Below, piece by piece: positions 943-35,410 of a stretch of DNA of 47,293 nucleotides. The notes beneath the pieces are model-generated. The model ran no database searches. It was not told the origin of the DNA and saw only the letters and a program-made list of their open reading frames with translations. The number at the start of each line of letters is the position of its first letter. Position 1 is the first letter of the stretch. The stretch lies in the IMG/VR virus record IMGVR_UViG_3300042372_000399, positions 1 through 47,293 of that record; one strand, written 5' to 3'. Origin of the DNA: a virus. Position numbers and translations under genes: made by a program.

Positions 943-3933
943 ATGAACGCGCCTAAAGACACATCTGCCGAGCTAACGGCCTTAGACGCAAAAACTCTAA
1001 GCAAACTTACGCCAAACGAATTGCGTTTCCTTATATGGCAACGCAAGTGGGCGCTCACTCGCAGAGCCAAACAAACTCCACCGCCAGGCGACTGGACGGA
1101 ATGGGGTATCTTGGCAGGACGCGGGTTCGGGAAGCAGATTCTGTGTGATACAAAAATACCTACACCAAAAGGGTGGGTATTAAACGGCGATTTAAAAGCT
1201 GGCGACGAAGTATTTGACGAAGCTGGCAAGCCGTGCACTATCTTGGAAGCGCACCCGATAACAATACCTGAAAAGATGTTTCGCGTTTCGTTTAGTGACG
1301 GCACGCACATAGATGCTGACGCCGACCACTTGTGGACCACCTGGACGCACCAAGCGCGCAAGCAATACACTCGCCACAAGCCAAACACAAACACTTGGCC
1401 AGAAGAATGGCCGCACTATGTGCAGCCCTTGTTCGATCGCCACGGCAACATCACGGGGGCTACAGGTCCCCAAGTTGTAAACACGCAAAAAATTGCAGAT
1501 ACGGTAACACAAGGTAAGCGCGGCGATTTAAACCATTGCATACCCACCTGCGGCGACTTGCAGTACCCTCAAACTGAATTACCAACTGACCCCTGGCTGC
1601 TAGGTTATTGGCTCGGAAACGGGTCTACGCTAGGCGCTAACGTAGCTTGCCACCAAGACGACGTAGCAGCGGTAAAAGCACGGTATGAACAGCACGGCTA
1701 TTCTGTAAAAATCATGAGCAACAAGCGAGACACCTACGTCTCCGGTCTGCTGGTAGACCTTCGCGCTCTTGGCGTTCTAGACAACAAGCATTGCCCAACT
1801 CGCTATTTGCAATCCGCCCCTGAGCAGCGCCGAGCGCTTCTTGCCGGACTGCTAGACAGTGACGGGCACTGTACCAAAGCAAGTGGCTACGTTGAGTTTA
1901 GCTCTACGCTAGAAATTTTAGCGTTAAATGTTATGGAACTGGCTAGGTCGCTTGGCCAAAAGCCCGTAATGACGCAAGGTGTAGCTAAGCTAAACGGCAA
2001 GGACTACGGGACCAAGTACCGAGTAACTTGGCGTTCAACGTATCAGCCGTTCAGCTTACCGCGCAAAGCTGCTGCCTGGAAGCCCCAAGCGTCGCAGGGT
2101 CTGCGCAATCGGCATCGCATGATCACAGCGGTAACGCCCATAGAGCCGCGTCCCAGCCGGTGCCTCACGGTTTCCAGCCCATCGGCGCTGTACTTGGCCG
2201 GAGAAGCTATGGTGCCTACCCACAACACGCTGACCGGCGCTCAGTGGCTCGCGTACAGAGCTTTTACCGATAAGGAAGCTTTGCCGCGAGCCGTTATAGC
2301 CCCTACGCTTAACGACGTGCGCTACACCTGTTTTGAAGGTCCTGCCGGGTTGCTAAGCGTCGTGCCCTCTGAGTTCATACTCAAAGACGGGTACAACAAA
2401 ACCAATCTGATCCTGTCCTTTCAAACGCCATACGGCGTAGCTACCGTCCGAGGGTTTTCGGCGGAAGAGCCAGAGCGTATGCGCGGGCCGCAATTCGCCG
2501 ATCTTTGGTGTTTTATCGCGGGCACTCAGGTAAGCACACCGTACGGCGACGCGCCCATAGAAACCTTGCAAAAATACGATAAGGTCTCCACACGCAAAGG
2601 GACAAAGCGCGTGTTGGCCAACTCAAAGCGAAAAGCTTTAGTCGGAACAGTAATTTTTAACAACGGCAAATCCTTAACGGGAACCGCTGATCACCCAGTT
2701 ATGACCGCCGAGGGGTGGAAAGCTTTAAGCGAATTGACGAAGCAAGATAAAGTATTTTCAACCTACAAAAATAACAAACTTGAAATTCCAAAGTGGTATC
2801 AAACAGCGGTGCTTGAACCTTGGCAACTCGAGGGGGAACAGTTCGTATATTGCCTGAAAGTCGAAGACGAGCCTGAATATTTTGCTAACGGAATTTTGGT
2901 TCATAATTGCGACGAGCTAGCCGCTTGGGGCCAAGGCGAAGAAACATGGGACATGGCCATGATGGGTTTACGGCTAGGGCCGCACCCACGCGTAGTGTGG
3001 ACTACTACGCCAAAACCTAAAGATTTGGTGCGCAAGCTTGTAGAACCTAAAAAAGGTAGAATAATCACCAACGGGTCTACCTATGAAAACCGAGCCAATT
3101 TGCCAGACAGCTTTTTCGAACAGCTTACGCAGTACGAAGGTACCCAGTTAGGACGTCAAGAACTAAATGGAGAGCTTATAGACGCCGAAGAAGGGGGCGT
3201 TATTCAGCGCAGTTGGATAAAGCTATGGCCTTCAGATAAGCCTCTGCCGTCATTTGATTGGATCATTGTGTCTATGGACACGGCTTTCACTGAAAAAACT
3301 ATAAACAAACGTACACACGAACCCGACGATAGTGCTTGTTCGGTATGGGGCATATTTTGGCATGACGACAAGCGCAATGTTTTGTTGCTTGATTGTTGGG
3401 CTGAAAAATACGGAATGCCGGATTTGATAAAACGCGCCAAAAAAGAAATGAACGTATCTTACGGCGACGACGATGACCGCCCTTTAATTAAACCACTGAT
3501 AAGCTCGGATAAGCTGGCAACGTCTGGACGTAAGCCAGATATTTTGCTCATAGAAGACAAAGGCAGCGGCATAAGCTTGCGGCAAATGCTAGACCGTGAA
3601 GGCATATCGGCGTACGCATACAATCCTGGCCGCGCGGATAAGCTAACGCGGTTACATATGGTCAGCCATATTTTTGCCCGTGGCCAAGTTTGGATACCTG
3701 AAAGCGAAAATCGCAAAGGTAAACCTAAAACTTGGGTAGAACCTTTGTTAGCGCAATTGTGCTCATTTACAGGTACGGGCAGCATTAAGCATGACGACTA
3801 TGTGGACACGGTAAGCCAAGCTTTAAGGCTATGCATGGACAAGAACCTACTTTCTGATGTAAAACGCTCAAAGAACAACGAACACGCGGAAATCAAACCG
3901 CCTAGCGTTGTCGTCAACCCCTACGCTATTTAA
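943..3933 (+). CDS. terL: Terminase large subunit carrying two inteins
   Basis: TerL is the ATPase/nuclease motor that packages DNA through the portal and cuts the concatemer. The 996-aa precursor contains 499 aa of extein, a normal TerL length. Walker A reads GRGFGK (59-64) and is completed by Thr429 only after intein 1 is removed. Walker B reads FADLW (518-522) and is completed by C-D-E (656-658) only after intein 2 is removed. The RNase H-like nuclease domain shows Asp779 (SMDTAF), Glu871/Asp872 (IEDKG) and Asp951/952 (KHDDYVD). Both ATPase motifs are split, so the protein should be inactive until both inteins splice. It directly precedes the portal gene. No small terminase was recognised next to it. 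Family and intein boundaries are clear from sequence; splicing activity is inferred. Confidence 0.93.
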   Translation: MNAPKDTSAELTALDAKTLSKLTPNELRFLIWQRKWALTRRAKQTPPPGDWTEWGILAGRGFGKQILCDTKIPTPKGWVLNGDLKAGDEVFDEAGKPCTILEAHPITIPEKMFRVSFSDGTHIDADADHLWTTWTHQARKQYTRHKPNTNTWPEEWPHYVQPLFDRHGNITGATGPQVVNTQKIADTVTQGKRGDLNHCIPTCGDLQYPQTELPTDPWLLGYWLGNGSTLGANVACHQDDVAAVKARYEQHGYSVKIMSNKRDTYVSGLLVDLRALGVLDNKHCPTRYLQSAPEQRRALLAGLLDSDGHCTKASGYVEFSSTLEILALNVMELARSLGQKPVMTQGVAKLNGKDYGTKYRVTWRSTYQPFSLPRKAAAWKPQASQGLRNRHRMITAVTPIEPRPSRCLTVSSPSALYLAGEAMVPTHNTLTGAQWLAYRAFTDKEALPRAVIAPTLNDVRYTCFEGPAGLLSVVPSEFILKDGYNKTNLILSFQTPYGVATVRGFSAEEPERMRGPQFADLWCFIAGTQVSTPYGDAPIETLQKYDKVSTRKGTKRVLANSKRKALVGTVIFNNGKSLTGTADHPVMTAEGWKALSELTKQDKVFSTYKNNKLEIPKWYQTAVLEPWQLEGEQFVYCLKVEDEPEYFANGILVHNCDELAAWGQGEETWDMAMMGLRLGPHPRVVWTTTPKPKDLVRKLVEPKKGRIITNGSTYENRANLPDSFFEQLTQYEGTQLGRQELNGELIDAEEGGVIQRSWIKLWPSDKPLPSFDWIIVSMDTAFTEKTINKRTHEPDDSACSVWGIFWHDDKRNVLLLDCWAEKYGMPDLIKRAKKEMNVSYGDDDDRPLIKPLISSDKLATSGRKPDILLIEDKGSGISLRQMLDREGISAYAYNPGRADKLTRLHMVSHIFARGQVWIPESENRKGKPKTWVEPLLAQLCSFTGTGSIKHDDYVDTVSQALRLCMDKNLLSDVKRSKNNEHAEIKPPSVVVNPYAI
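1135..2226 (+). other. Intein 1 of TerL: class 3-like, with LAGLIDADG endonuclease
   Basis: This 364-aa intein (precursor residues 65-428) sits between K64 and T429 of Walker A. It starts with Gln, not Cys or Ser, at QILCDTKIPTPKGW. Block B holds ADHLWTTW, block F holds RCLTV, and the C-terminus is VPTHN followed by extein Thr. A non-nucleophilic first residue with W, C and T at these places is the signature of class 3 inteins, where the block F Cys starts splicing. Two LAGLIDADG-type motifs, LLGYWLGNGS and LLAGLLDSDG, indicate a dodecapeptide homing endonuclease in the same frame. Boundaries are supported by the continuity of GRGFGK-T across the junction. Confidence 0.88.
2509..2907 (+). other. 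Intein 2 of TerL: mini-intein in Walker B
   Basis: This 133-aa element (residues 523-655) begins CFIAGTQVSTPYGDAP, a normal block A with Cys1, has block B GTADHPVMT, and ends YFANGILVHN before extein Cys656. It is a class 1 Hint domain with no room for a homing endonuclease. It interrupts Walker B between Trp522 and the C-D-E stretch. Its bases look more A/T rich than the surrounding extein. Being a mini-intein, it cannot home by itself unless an enzyme acts in trans. Confidence 0.9.
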
Positions 3934-32613: not shown

Positions 32614-33143
32614 TTCGCTCCTTGTTTGCTATAGGCTTCTGCCTTTAAAGCCGAATAGGCCACTCCATCTTCGGCGCTGTCCGCGTGATATTCACGCTTA
32701 CTAAACAGTCGGACATCCTTTAGGATTTGCATAAATAACCACCCTTCCGGTTCGGATAGTGTCTTTCCGGTGATTGCGTTAAACGCTTTTACCGTCTTGG
32801 CCATAGACCGCTCGCCTTCAGAATTGTCATATTGCTTGCCGCGCTCGGCCATGAGGGCTGCGGCCCTAGCAAGAAGATCAGGGGCAGAAGTATACCCCAT
32901 CATCACATTAAACTGATGATTTGATGCGTTTTCCATCGTGTTTTTGTGATTTTCAGAATTAGGCAGTATGATAAAGCCTTGTTCTAATTCGTCTTCAGCC
33001 AAGCTGTGTATTACGCCGTCGTTAAATCTTACCTTCCACATAGCAAAAGCTTGGTACCTACGTTCAAAAAGAAGAAGTGTCGCAATTCTACCTGTACGTA
33101 TGTGCTGCACGCGCATGTTTGTTTCATATTTCGGCATCCTCAT
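32610..33143 (-). CDS. DUF6378 protein with extra N-terminal domain
   Basis: The C-terminal half (about 90-177) has ALMAERGKQYDNSEGERSMA, FNAITGKTLSEPEGWLFMQI and DSAEDGVAYSALKAEAY, the DUF6378 pattern of phage early regions. The N-terminal 70 residues form a separate, basic, beta-rich part (VQHIRTGRIATLLLFERR) that might be a small SH3-like or DNA-binding module. Its start overlaps the helicase stop (ATGA), GGAG stands four bases before it. The function is unknown. Confidence 0.65.
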   Translation of the reverse strand: MRMPKYETNMRVQHIRTGRIATLLLFERRYQAFAMWKVRFNDGVIHSLAEDELEQGFIILPNSENHKNTMENASNHQFNVMMGYTSAPDLLARAAALMAERGKQYDNSEGERSMAKTVKAFNAITGKTLSEPEGWLFMQILKDVRLFSKREYHADSAEDGVAYSALKAEAYSKQGAK

Positions 33144-35410
33144 TTGCTCCTTTTCAGTGCCTCTAACAAAATCTCTTGCACAGTCTTTTTAGTTTGAAGC
33201 CGCTCGCGCACCATATCGTCCACCGTATCCTTGGCGAGAATATAGTGAACGTATACGGGACGATCTAAACCTGCTTGCGCTTGGCGCATAGGGCCTATCC
33301 GCTCTATGATTTGCAGGTGCTCCTCCAAGTTCCAGTCCAACGAGAAAAACGCCAATATGTTGCCGCCTTCGGCTAAGTTAAGGCCGTGACCGGCTGAATT
33401 ATGCGATATAAACACTTCACCATTTGAGTTCCGTATCAGAAATCTATGGCGAGGCCCACAATCAACTAGATCGTAGACTTCCGAGATTTTCGGTTCTTTT
33501 TGTATCGGCTGCTTGCATAATCCAGTAGCGCCTCTTCGGCGCTCATCCCCGCATTCAAACGTGGAGACATAGCCCCCTTGCTCACGTTGGCCACGCGACA
33601 AAATTCGGCTAGGTGCATGTTGCGACCTAAGTAATGGATAACTCGATTGTTGTTCTTGCTGGCCTGCTGCGTTAAGTTCGACACCCACCTGCAGTTTTCG
33701 GGAAAATACCCTTTCGAATTGTCTATCCTGTCTATTGTTAAATCGTCCGAATATCCTTTGTGCATGTCGCGGTAGAAATTTTCGAATTTTAGCCACTCTT
33801 CGCACACGCCCCGCCCAGCTCCGCCGTAACGCGCCCAATCTTTGTTCTCGAAGTTCGTCGCTCTTTCCTTCATTCCTTTCCATATTGAATAGAACCGGGT
33901 ATCGGTCATTCGGTGGAAAGTGTTTTCTATGCAAGACGGACAAAACGCTCGCGCGCTTTTGTTGGCTCGAATTGCGTTCTGTAACAACATCGTTCTTTCG
34001 GCTTTGCAATGACAGCATCTTGCTAAGATAAGGGTCATTTCCCGCGTACTCGTAACGCGCTTTTCTTTTAGCGTTTCTAGTATTTCGTACATTTTTAGCC
34101 TCTACCCATTTTTCGCCAATAAGCACTTTGTGATTTTCGGTCATAAGTATTCCGAAAACATCCCTTACAGGCTTAGTGCCGGAAAAATAACACCCTTTAT
34201 GGCCAACAAAATCAACACCATCGTATACCCGCTCATCGGGCCTTACTGACGTTATTTTAACCCAACCCCGATATTCAGTCAACACTTCCGTACTCGGATG
34301 CAGACATGCGGGATGGGCTAGAAGAGTAGGTATCTTGCCCGCGTTCCAGTCGCGTATCGTTTTAGGATCAGCGTCAAGCTGCCTAGCTTTAGGGAAAGCT
34401 TTCTGTAGCCTGGACAGATCACTTTTAAATTTATATGCCACCAAGACTGGTGCGCCGTTAGCCTCCTCAATGATACTGTCCAGCGCTTTAAGCTTTTCGT
34501 CATGAACTTCTTTCCATTCCTTGTTGTCGTCGCTGAAATACGCAGCGCCATTGGCAAGTTGCAAACATTTCATGGTTTTAGCCGCTGCGTTGAGCGCTTC
34601 CACCCCTTCGCCCTCAATAAGCGCAAACATGTCCTTTTCCATCTGGCGGTATAGTTTTCGTGCTTCGGGCGGAAGATCGATATGAATGAAATTATGAATA
34701 GGCTCGTCTACCGGCAGCCCGCTTACAGTCAGACATATATCCTTTAGCCGTCCTTCAATCTCACCCTGCGAATGGCTTAGAGGCTTTAGGCTGTACCCGT
34801 CATACCCTTTGGCAAACCATCTGCTTTCAAAAGCAGAAAAGCTTCTACCTAATCTCTCCCCTTTATCGAGAAACCAAGTCTGCCCCCATAAGTCCGCTAG
34901 ACCGTTGGGTGATGGCGTCCCGGTAAGCCCTATAAACCTGTCCACCTTAGTGTGCGCAACCCGGCCTAGGGCTTTAGCCCTCTTTGATCCTTGGGTGATC
35001 CTAAATGATTTTAAGCGCGTAAACTCGTCAGCTACAACCGTCTTGAATGGCCAGTTTTCGCCGCAAGTTTCGGTCAGCCAAACTAAATTGTCATAGTTCA
35101 TAGTGTAAATATCTGCCTTAGCGTCAAGTGCTGCTTGACGCTCCTTAGCGTTCCCCGTGATGACGCTAACCTTAAGGTGCTTCGTATGCGTCCACTTGCC
35201 TATTTCGTCGGGCCAAGTGGATCGCGCTACGCGCAGCGGCGCAAGTATTAGCGCAGGGAACACGTCTTCGACCATAGACAAATGGTCTAAAGCTGTAAGT
35301 GTCGATACGGTTTTTCCCGTGCCCATAGAAGCCCACACACCGCAACGCTTATTGCTTTGTATGAAGTCTATTATGTCGTGCTGATAGGGGTGGGGCGTAA
35401 AATGTCTCAA
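33140..35410 (-). CDS. SNF2-type DEAD/DEAH helicase carrying an intein
   Basis: The 756-aa precursor holds 453 aa of extein, the usual length of phage SNF2-like helicases in the replication module. Walker A is MGTGKT (29-34), motif II is VADEF (126-130), motif III is GLTGTPSPNG (161-170), motif V is HPA...SAGHGLNLAEGGN, and motif VI-like RIGPMRQAQ comes near the end. The intein (residues 369-671) splits motif V between Ala368 and Ser672, so splicing is needed for activity. The protein acts in DNA unwinding or remodelling with the polymerase and nucleases of the same operon. A complete HNH gene lies inside the intein in another frame. Confidence 0.88.
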   Translation of the reverse strand: MRHFTPHPYQHDIIDFIQSNKRCGVWASMGTGKTVSTLTALDHLSMVEDVFPALILAPLRVARSTWPDEIGKWTHTKHLKVSVITGNAKERQAALDAKADIYTMNYDNLVWLTETCGENWPFKTVVADEFTRLKSFRITQGSKRAKALGRVAHTKVDRFIGLTGTPSPNGLADLWGQTWFLDKGERLGRSFSAFESRWFAKGYDGYSLKPLSHSQGEIEGRLKDICLTVSGLPVDEPIHNFIHIDLPPEARKLYRQMEKDMFALIEGEGVEALNAAAKTMKCLQLANGAAYFSDDNKEWKEVHDEKLKALDSIIEEANGAPVLVAYKFKSDLSRLQKAFPKARQLDADPKTIRDWNAGKIPTLLAHPACLHPSTEVLTEYRGWVKITSVRPDERVYDGVDFVGHKGCYFSGTKPVRDVFGILMTENHKVLIGEKWVEAKNVRNTRNAKRKARYEYAGNDPYLSKMLSLQSRKNDVVTERNSSQQKRASVLSVLHRKHFPPNDRYPVLFNMERNEGKSDELREQRLGALRRSWAGRVRRVAKIRKFLPRHAQRIFGRFNNRQDRQFERVFSRKLQVGVELNAAGQQEQQSSYPLLRSQHAPSRILSRGQREQGGYVSTFECGDERRRGATGLCKQPIQKEPKISEVYDLVDCGPRHRFLIRNSNGEVFISHNSAGHGLNLAEGGNILAFFSLDWNLEEHLQIIERIGPMRQAQAGLDRPVYVHYILAKDTVDDMVRERLQTKKTVQEILLEALKRSK
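33398..34306 (-). other. Intein of the helicase, containing an out-of-frame endonuclease gene
   Basis: The 303-aa intein begins CLHPSTEVLTEYRGWVKIT (block A), has LMTENHKVLIGEKW (block B) about 50 residues later, and ends CGPRHRFLIRNSNGEVFISH with final Asn before extein Ser672. The two ends form a complete Hint domain. The middle (about 73-280 of the intein) is basic, Arg/Gln rich and low in pattern; it is the translation of the HNH gene in the wrong frame, yet it has no stop codon over 627 bases. Boundaries follow from the continuity of motif V. Confidence 0.88.
33466..34092 (-). CDS. HNH homing endonuclease nested out of frame in the helicase intein
   Basis: The 208-aa protein has a zinc-binding pair CCHCK (26-30) and CPSC (51-54), then WARYGGAGRGVCEEW (86-100) and LTIDRIDNSKGYFPENCRW (118-136), the signature of free-standing phage HNH endonucleases of the YGGRG type, and a C-terminal helix-turn-helix (LAEFCRVANVSKGAMSPRLN, 161-180) typical of their DNA-binding tail. 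ATG at 34092 has AGAGG six bases upstream. The frame differs by one base from the intein frame, in which the whole 627 bases are also open. The enzyme would cut intein-free helicase alleles and promote homing. The family is clear; its independent expression is inferred. Confidence 0.85.
   Translation of the reverse strand: MYEILETLKEKRVTSTREMTLILARCCHCKAERTMLLQNAIRANKSARAFCPSCIENTFHRMTDTRFYSIWKGMKERATNFENKDWARYGGAGRGVCEEWLKFENFYRDMHKGYSDDLTIDRIDNSKGYFPENCRWVSNLTQQASKNNNRVIHYLGRNMHLAEFCRVANVSKGAMSPRLNAGMSAEEALLDYASSRYKKNRKSRKSTI

Follow-up and report, generated by a model that had tools for sequence, protein, structure and literature searches.

A phage helicase intein with an HNH-family endonuclease gene nested in a second reading frame

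In textbook inteins, the endonuclease is a domain of the precursor protein, and in split inteins, which interrupt fractured genes, an endonuclease gene lies between the two halves. The helicase gene of the viral record IMGVR_UViG_3300042372_000399 (47,293 nt; the window, hereafter, is this whole stretch) raises the question of how a splicing element and an endonuclease can be encoded by the same bases of one unsplit gene. A first-pass annotation had described here an intein with intact ends whose middle is coding in two frames. We found that the helicase ORF is free of stops throughout and that a 208-codon HNH ORF lies in the +1 frame within it, in agreement with that description. The features of the locus are as follows.

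35410-33140, minus strand: SNF2-type phage helicase ORF, 756 codons, stop-free
34307-35410, minus strand: N-extein of the SNF2-type helicase, N-terminal 368 residues, ending ...LLAHPA
33398-34306, minus strand: intein, 303 residues, with Cys1, block B TxxH (TENH), block G SHN, and Ser+1
34088-34306, minus strand: Hint-N splicing half, blocks A and B, from intein alignments
33482-34087, minus strand: intein-frame linker, ~202 residues, basic, dual-coding with the endonuclease
33398-33481, minus strand: Hint-C splicing half, blocks F and G, EVYDLVDCGPRHRFLIRNSNGEVFISHN, from the alignment of 21 inteins of this site
33140-33397, minus strand: C-extein of the helicase (SAGHGLNL..., motif V/VI region), with a weak Pfam Helicase_C match
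33466-34092, minus strand: gene of an HNH-family endonuclease (208 aa), one base ahead of the intein (+1 frame)
34099-34103, minus strand: Shine-Dalgarno-like AGAGG, 6 nt upstream of the ATG, where block B encodes W-V-E-A
34090-34092, minus strand: ATG start codon, overlapping the intein codons AAT-GTA (N-V)
33466-33468, minus strand: TAG stop of the endonuclease in block F, within CTA-GTT (L-V of VYDLVD)

The identity of the host gene is clear from its N-extein, which matches PHROG 62 (DNA helicase, 1e-144) and Pfam SNF2-rel_dom (5e-16). The equivalent of the C-extein occurs without interruption in the helicase of Caulobacter phage KcrB (VLFAHPQSAGHGLN), where a conserved helicase motif is unbroken; in the window, the in-frame intein insertion splits this motif as HPx/SAGHG (the slash marks the insertion point). 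The intein runs from TGT (Cys1, 34306) to AAT (Asn303, 33398) and is followed by TCA (Ser+1), so that the boundaries given by the first-pass annotation were exact. Cys1, T56, H59, H302, and N303 are invariant in an alignment of 21 inteins of the helicase site. In an AF2 model of the intein, the pLDDT is ~92 in both Hint halves and < 50 for residues 118-269, and the linker is thus predicted to be disordered. When the model was compared with the PDB using Foldseek, inteins and hedgehog Hint domains accounted for all of the first 31 matches. Their E-values are modest (E 0.017 and probability 1.00 for the best match), probably because half of the model is disordered. A search of NCBIfam gave no match for the intein. 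Taken together, the conserved residues and the predicted fold indicate that the insert is a real Hint intein with intact splicing halves.

The nested ORF, from the ATG at 34092-34090 to the TAG at 33468-33466, lies wholly within the helicase ORF. Its product has a zinc-finger-like N-terminus, a nuclease core, and a C-terminal helix-turn-helix-like part, and it is assigned to the HNH endonucleases by PHROG 3377 (E=1.5e-45) and PHROG 374 (E=2.1e-40), whose profile matches span the nuclease core. The first-pass annotation had credited this protein with all motifs of the family. The PHROG matches uphold the family assignment, but the classical HNH motif is degenerate: Arg replaces the first His (LTIDRIDNSKGYFPENCRWV; DRID instead of DHID), and Pfam and NCBIfam searches gave no nuclease match. 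Within DRID...NCRW, R122 and N133 are invariant across the alignment. An AF2 model of the HNH frame has a mean pLDDT of 90.0, and neither a Foldseek search with the model nor a sequence search with the protein matched a solved structure in the PDB. Given the degenerate motif, the silence of Pfam and NCBIfam, and the lack of a structural match, nuclease activity rests on family annotation, and the Arg in place of the first His appears to be the main reservation about the predicted endonuclease activity.

The first-pass annotation knew of no described intein of this design, but a wider search did not support a singular case. Twenty further inteins occupying the helicase site of the window share the arrangement. 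The relatives L002 (70% HNH identity) and L004 (45% HNH identity) agree with the window in the helicase, in the insertion site, and in the +1 relation. Three scans of IMG/VR combined with a Hint/HNH classifier yielded 143 distinct intein N-domains. In 128 distinct phage inteins, both Hint halves are intact and share one open frame, and the HNH lies in another (+1 in 85 inteins, +2 in 43). The remainder comprises 4 mini-inteins and others that are truncated or broken, and no intact intein with an in-frame HNH was found among the 143. A sample that is blind to the HNH, collected with the intein splicing-domain profile A1 (four sequences) alone, consists of 65 distinct inteins; 56 are nested, none is in frame, and 4 are mini-inteins with endonuclease relics. 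Among named phages, an intein N-domain search gave 156 records, and inteins with a +2 nested HNH were found in Sodalis SO-1, Shigella EP23, Escherichia Pubbukkers, Salmonella VT223 and templet, Pseudomonas MR14, Vibrio 97.13, and EBPR siphovirus 2. In bacterial genome contigs, the four-sequence profile A1 had no match, and a polymerase-type profile recovered six full loci, which are also nested, and four weak ones.

The host genes of the nested inteins are family-A DNA polymerases and SNF2 helicases. The insertion sites include HPA/SAGHG in the helicase, a second helicase site at TMK/CLQLANG, and two or more sites in PolA. In these sequence surveys, the nested design is the rule in a large phage intein family with four or more insertion sites. 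Single genes can hold both frame classes: L148 and L150 each have two nested inteins in one DNA polymerase, one per frame class (+1 and +2), and the polymerase of L292 has two inteins, with a +2 HNH and a partly deleted +1 HNH. At the second helicase-family site (TMK/C...N/CLQLANGA), which is empty in the window, a +1 nested HNH is present in L243, L244, L257, L258, L266, and L276, and these HNHs are related to the polymerase group. In L055, a viral record of 40,793 bp near Salmonella Jerseyviruses, the frame of the polymerase intein is broken and that of its near relatives is intact, which reflects either decay or a sequencing error.

We consider it quite probable that the element is a homing intein with its endonuclease encoded separately, by an overlapping gene expressed by internal initiation, so that splicing and mobility are encoded in two frames. 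We infer splicing, internal initiation, cleavage, and homing as follows. The helicase mRNA would be read twice. Ribosomes from the helicase start would make one long precursor, whose Hint halves would form a common fold with the disordered linker of 200 residues between them, splice themselves out, and ligate the helicase. Initiation at the internal Shine-Dalgarno sequence and ATG in block B would yield a free 208-aa HNH-family endonuclease that ends in block F. The endonuclease would cut intein-less helicase alleles of co-infecting phages, and repair after cleavage would copy the whole unit of intein and endonuclease. The selected protein is the HNH, and the overlying intein frame is selected solely for staying open.

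In pairs of Jerseyviruses and Dhillonviruses, the intein and HNH are much more alike between the members of a pair than the surrounding polymerase is: for example, identity is 0.90-0.93 with a pS of 0.44-0.49 for Hint-N, and 0.67-0.72 with a pS of 0.71-0.79 for the extein. The intein is far younger than the polymerase, a sign of recent transfer. No such contrast emerged at the window's helicase site from the comparison of the window with L002, intein and extein being equally diverged. The mini-inteins L236 and L237, which occupy the window's site, have kept the ATG and ~26-45 HNH codons before an internal deletion, and L249 and L250 have kept HNH tails; in all four, the deletions preserved the intein frame. 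In keeping with the homing cycle, these mini-inteins with stubs record endonuclease loss, and those at the same site allow the cycle to be traced stepwise. L290, from an Arsenophonus endosymbiont, is a decaying copy: its prophage polymerase holds a nested intein with a frameshifted HNH, and the polymerase itself has an early stop. A quick tree, with weak deep branches, was built from 106 nested HNHs and 40 free-standing ones. In it, helicase-group HNHs form one fully supported clade, the +1/+2 label switches once among the nested HNHs, and three to four changes are needed between nested and free-standing HNHs. This pattern is consistent with free-standing HNH genes having entered inteins two or three times, with the frame kept after each entry.

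These observations bear on the alternative that fares best, namely that the arrangement is real but the nested protein has a function for the phage other than homing, for example in packaging or DNA-binding regulation. Its degenerate HNH motif speaks for such a role, and so does the involvement of other phage HNH proteins in packaging (cited in PMC12613952). However, the gene sits at the canonical endonuclease insertion point of inteins, the intein and HNH are younger than the host gene in several pairs, and the HNH loss in mini-inteins fits the homing cycle, and we regard a role other than homing as improbable.

The first-pass annotation had pointed out an ATG and an AGAGG site, both of which are present. 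The position of the start codon is identical in all 21 helicase-site inteins (ATG in 20 and GTG in 1), and 20 of them have an SD-like match, 4 nt or longer, before it. The intein codon that supplies the start (D/N/H/G) always ends in T in these 21 inteins, whereas the background share of T is 0.24-0.65; for the 20 D/N/H cases, this bias has a probability of 10^-7.6 if they are independent, a value that is too small given their shared ancestry. The HNH stop falls within Hint-C in all helicase-group inteins and in all but one of 107 others. Many +1 polymerase inteins without the usual start have instead an ATG 15 nt upstream with GAGGT. In several Jerseyvirus copies of the +2 class, no ATG, GTG, or TTG is found near the usual start place.

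An alternative to internal initiation is programmed ribosomal frameshifting from the intein frame, which would produce a fusion of helicase, Hint-N, and HNH. It would account for the change of frame always occurring at the Hint-N boundary, and the HNH frame of the +2 class is often open farther upstream. Nevertheless, +1 and +2 classes both exist, no conserved slippery run is seen at the boundary by eye, and inteins of the helicase group retain both the SD and the ATG; for these reasons, we reject frameshifting as a general route. In the window, moreover, a TAG at 34104-34102, 12 nt before the ATG, closes the HNH frame, so only 9 nt upstream of the start are left for a shift. Frameshifting therefore seems to us unlikely, and somewhat more so than a role of the protein outside homing. 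The preferred reading, in which the endonuclease is a separate, selected, out-of-frame gene with its own start signals and the intein frame stays open, is supported by these sequence comparisons and agrees with the first-pass annotation, which had described a free-standing gene that leaves the host frame unbroken.

Both frames, their conservation, the selection on the HNH frame, the placement of start and stop, and the Hint fold are computed results. Synonymous codons were shuffled 200 times with the HNH protein kept, and stops in the intein frame were counted. For the window, the shuffles average 9.8 intein-frame stops and none of the 200 is open; across the nested inteins, 6.6 (+1) and 3.8 (+2) stops are expected per intein and none is observed. 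As a control, we assembled 123 free-standing HNH homologues, from which every locus with any Hint match had been removed. Their two alternative frames contain a mean of 9 and 16 stops, and 1 of 246 such frames is open. Chance overlap of two open frames is therefore excluded, given that synonymous shuffles never leave the intein frame open and that the alternative frames of free-standing homologues are nearly never open.

Selection was analyzed in 181 pairs at 60-97% HNH identity. Substitutions at HNH codon positions 1, 2, and 3 are 0.27, 0.22, and 0.52 for the +1 class and 0.23, 0.16, and 0.42 for the +2 class, and the median HNH pN/pS is 0.37 (+1) and 0.32 (+2). By these measures, the endonuclease frame is under purifying selection. 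The amino-acid identity of the +1 linker is 0.383 compared to 0.391 in the unused third frame, and free-standing pairs have 0.39; the equality of linker and unused frame indicates that the intein frame is kept open with its sequence otherwise free. Constraint on the linker sequence is thus ruled out, perhaps with a slight exception in the +2 class, where linker identity is 0.506 and that of the third frame is 0.471, a difference of 3.5 points that may reflect a weak constraint.

The possibility that the HNH region is a dead insert, with both frames open by chance or decay, is very improbable in light of these measurements. Decay does occur, as seen in the mini-inteins that bear relics and in one degenerate copy (L290), but the low median pN/pS and third-position bias of the 181 pairs, the preserved start and stop, and zero stops where 4-10 are expected all argue against it. 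Even less probable is that the element is a group I intron with an HNH ORF rather than an intein. Endonuclease ORFs are common in phage introns, and the GenBank record of Sodalis phage SO-1 labels its insert a type I self-splicing intron. However, a search of the window against Rfam gave nothing at E-values up to 1, eight related loci matched none of its intron families, and all of the intein residues, the Hint fold, and the open host frame are present; this explanation is accordingly rejected. The SO-1 locus (L042) likewise had no Rfam intron match, and its insert is an intein with a +2 nested HNH. Finally, two compensating sequencing or assembly errors that displaced an ordinary in-frame HNH intein, which have nothing beyond general possibility in their favor, have almost no probability and are refuted by relatives: independent contigs with HNH identities of 70%, 63%, and 45% share the frame relation, as do isolate genomes, and start and stop codons lie at conserved places. 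Neither such errors nor relatives with an in-frame HNH, the two outcomes that would have contradicted the first-pass annotation, turned up.

How does the design relate to known systems? As in canonical inteins (for example, PI-SceI and the HNH intein of Dalgaard 1997, listed in PMC5050341), the window's intein has Hint halves with the endonuclease inserted between blocks B and F. In canonical LAGLIDADG and HNH inteins, however, the endonuclease is translated within the precursor, whereas in the window it is in another frame. Split inteins resemble the window in that the endonuclease gene stands apart from the splicing polypeptide, but the window's host gene is unsplit, and a single stretch of bases encodes both products. 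Actinobacteriophage inteins are reportedly of a "non-canonical architecture" (Gosselin, 2025, bioRxiv 10.1101/2025.01.02.630785), possibly with overlapping frames, in work that by its title concerns actinophages only. Out-of-frame HNH insertions in genes that have no intein were published in 2025 (PMC11855218; also PMC12613952), and the Gosselin preprint is the work to which PMC11855218 refers for the frequent overlap of reading frames. The ShiLan element is like that of the window in having a ~195-aa HNH ORF in another frame, an open host frame, and a mobile distribution. It has no splicing domain and no ribosome-binding site was found for it, and it is thought to stay in the protein, unlike the window's element, which has an SD and encloses its HNH within a complete Hint domain.

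Two precedents are P45/P46 of the Hamiltonella phage APSE-1 and gp38/gp39 of SO-1, which like the window combine an intein, here in a polymerase, with an out-of-frame HNH, but in another host gene and at another insertion site. In GenBank, APSE-1 P46 and SO-1 gp39 are annotated as genes overlapping the polymerase gene, and we found no published interpretation of this arrangement as a class in the literature searched. Nor did that literature, which does not include Gosselin 2025, yield a paper describing inteins with out-of-frame endonucleases. The design is present in over a hundred other phage inteins and is almost unremarked. We incline to the view that these elements make up an old and large group of phage inteins, as yet undescribed, whose endonuclease is encoded autonomously by an overlapping gene that has a ribosome-binding site of its own, with at least two or three origins from free-standing HNH genes, a frame fixed per lineage, several insertion sites in replication genes, and splicing and mobility uncoupled at translation.

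Dozens of lineages keep a 200-codon overlap with a folded enzyme predicted in one frame and a stop-free disordered linker in the other, and the nested inteins thereby offer a large natural data set on overlapping genes as well as a testable case of endonuclease expression independent of splicing. Because gene callers hide or misname the nested genes, catalogues of phage endonucleases and inteins are incomplete.

The window contains two further inteins, both in the large terminase subunit (943-3933, plus strand). The first is of the LAGLIDADG type, at approximately residues 66-430 in Walker A (GK/.../TLTGAQW), and its first residue is seemingly Gln (QILCDT). The second is a mini-intein at approximately residues 528-657 (LW/CFIAG...VHN/CDELA). 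With the helicase intein, this one phage thus has three inteins of three architectures.
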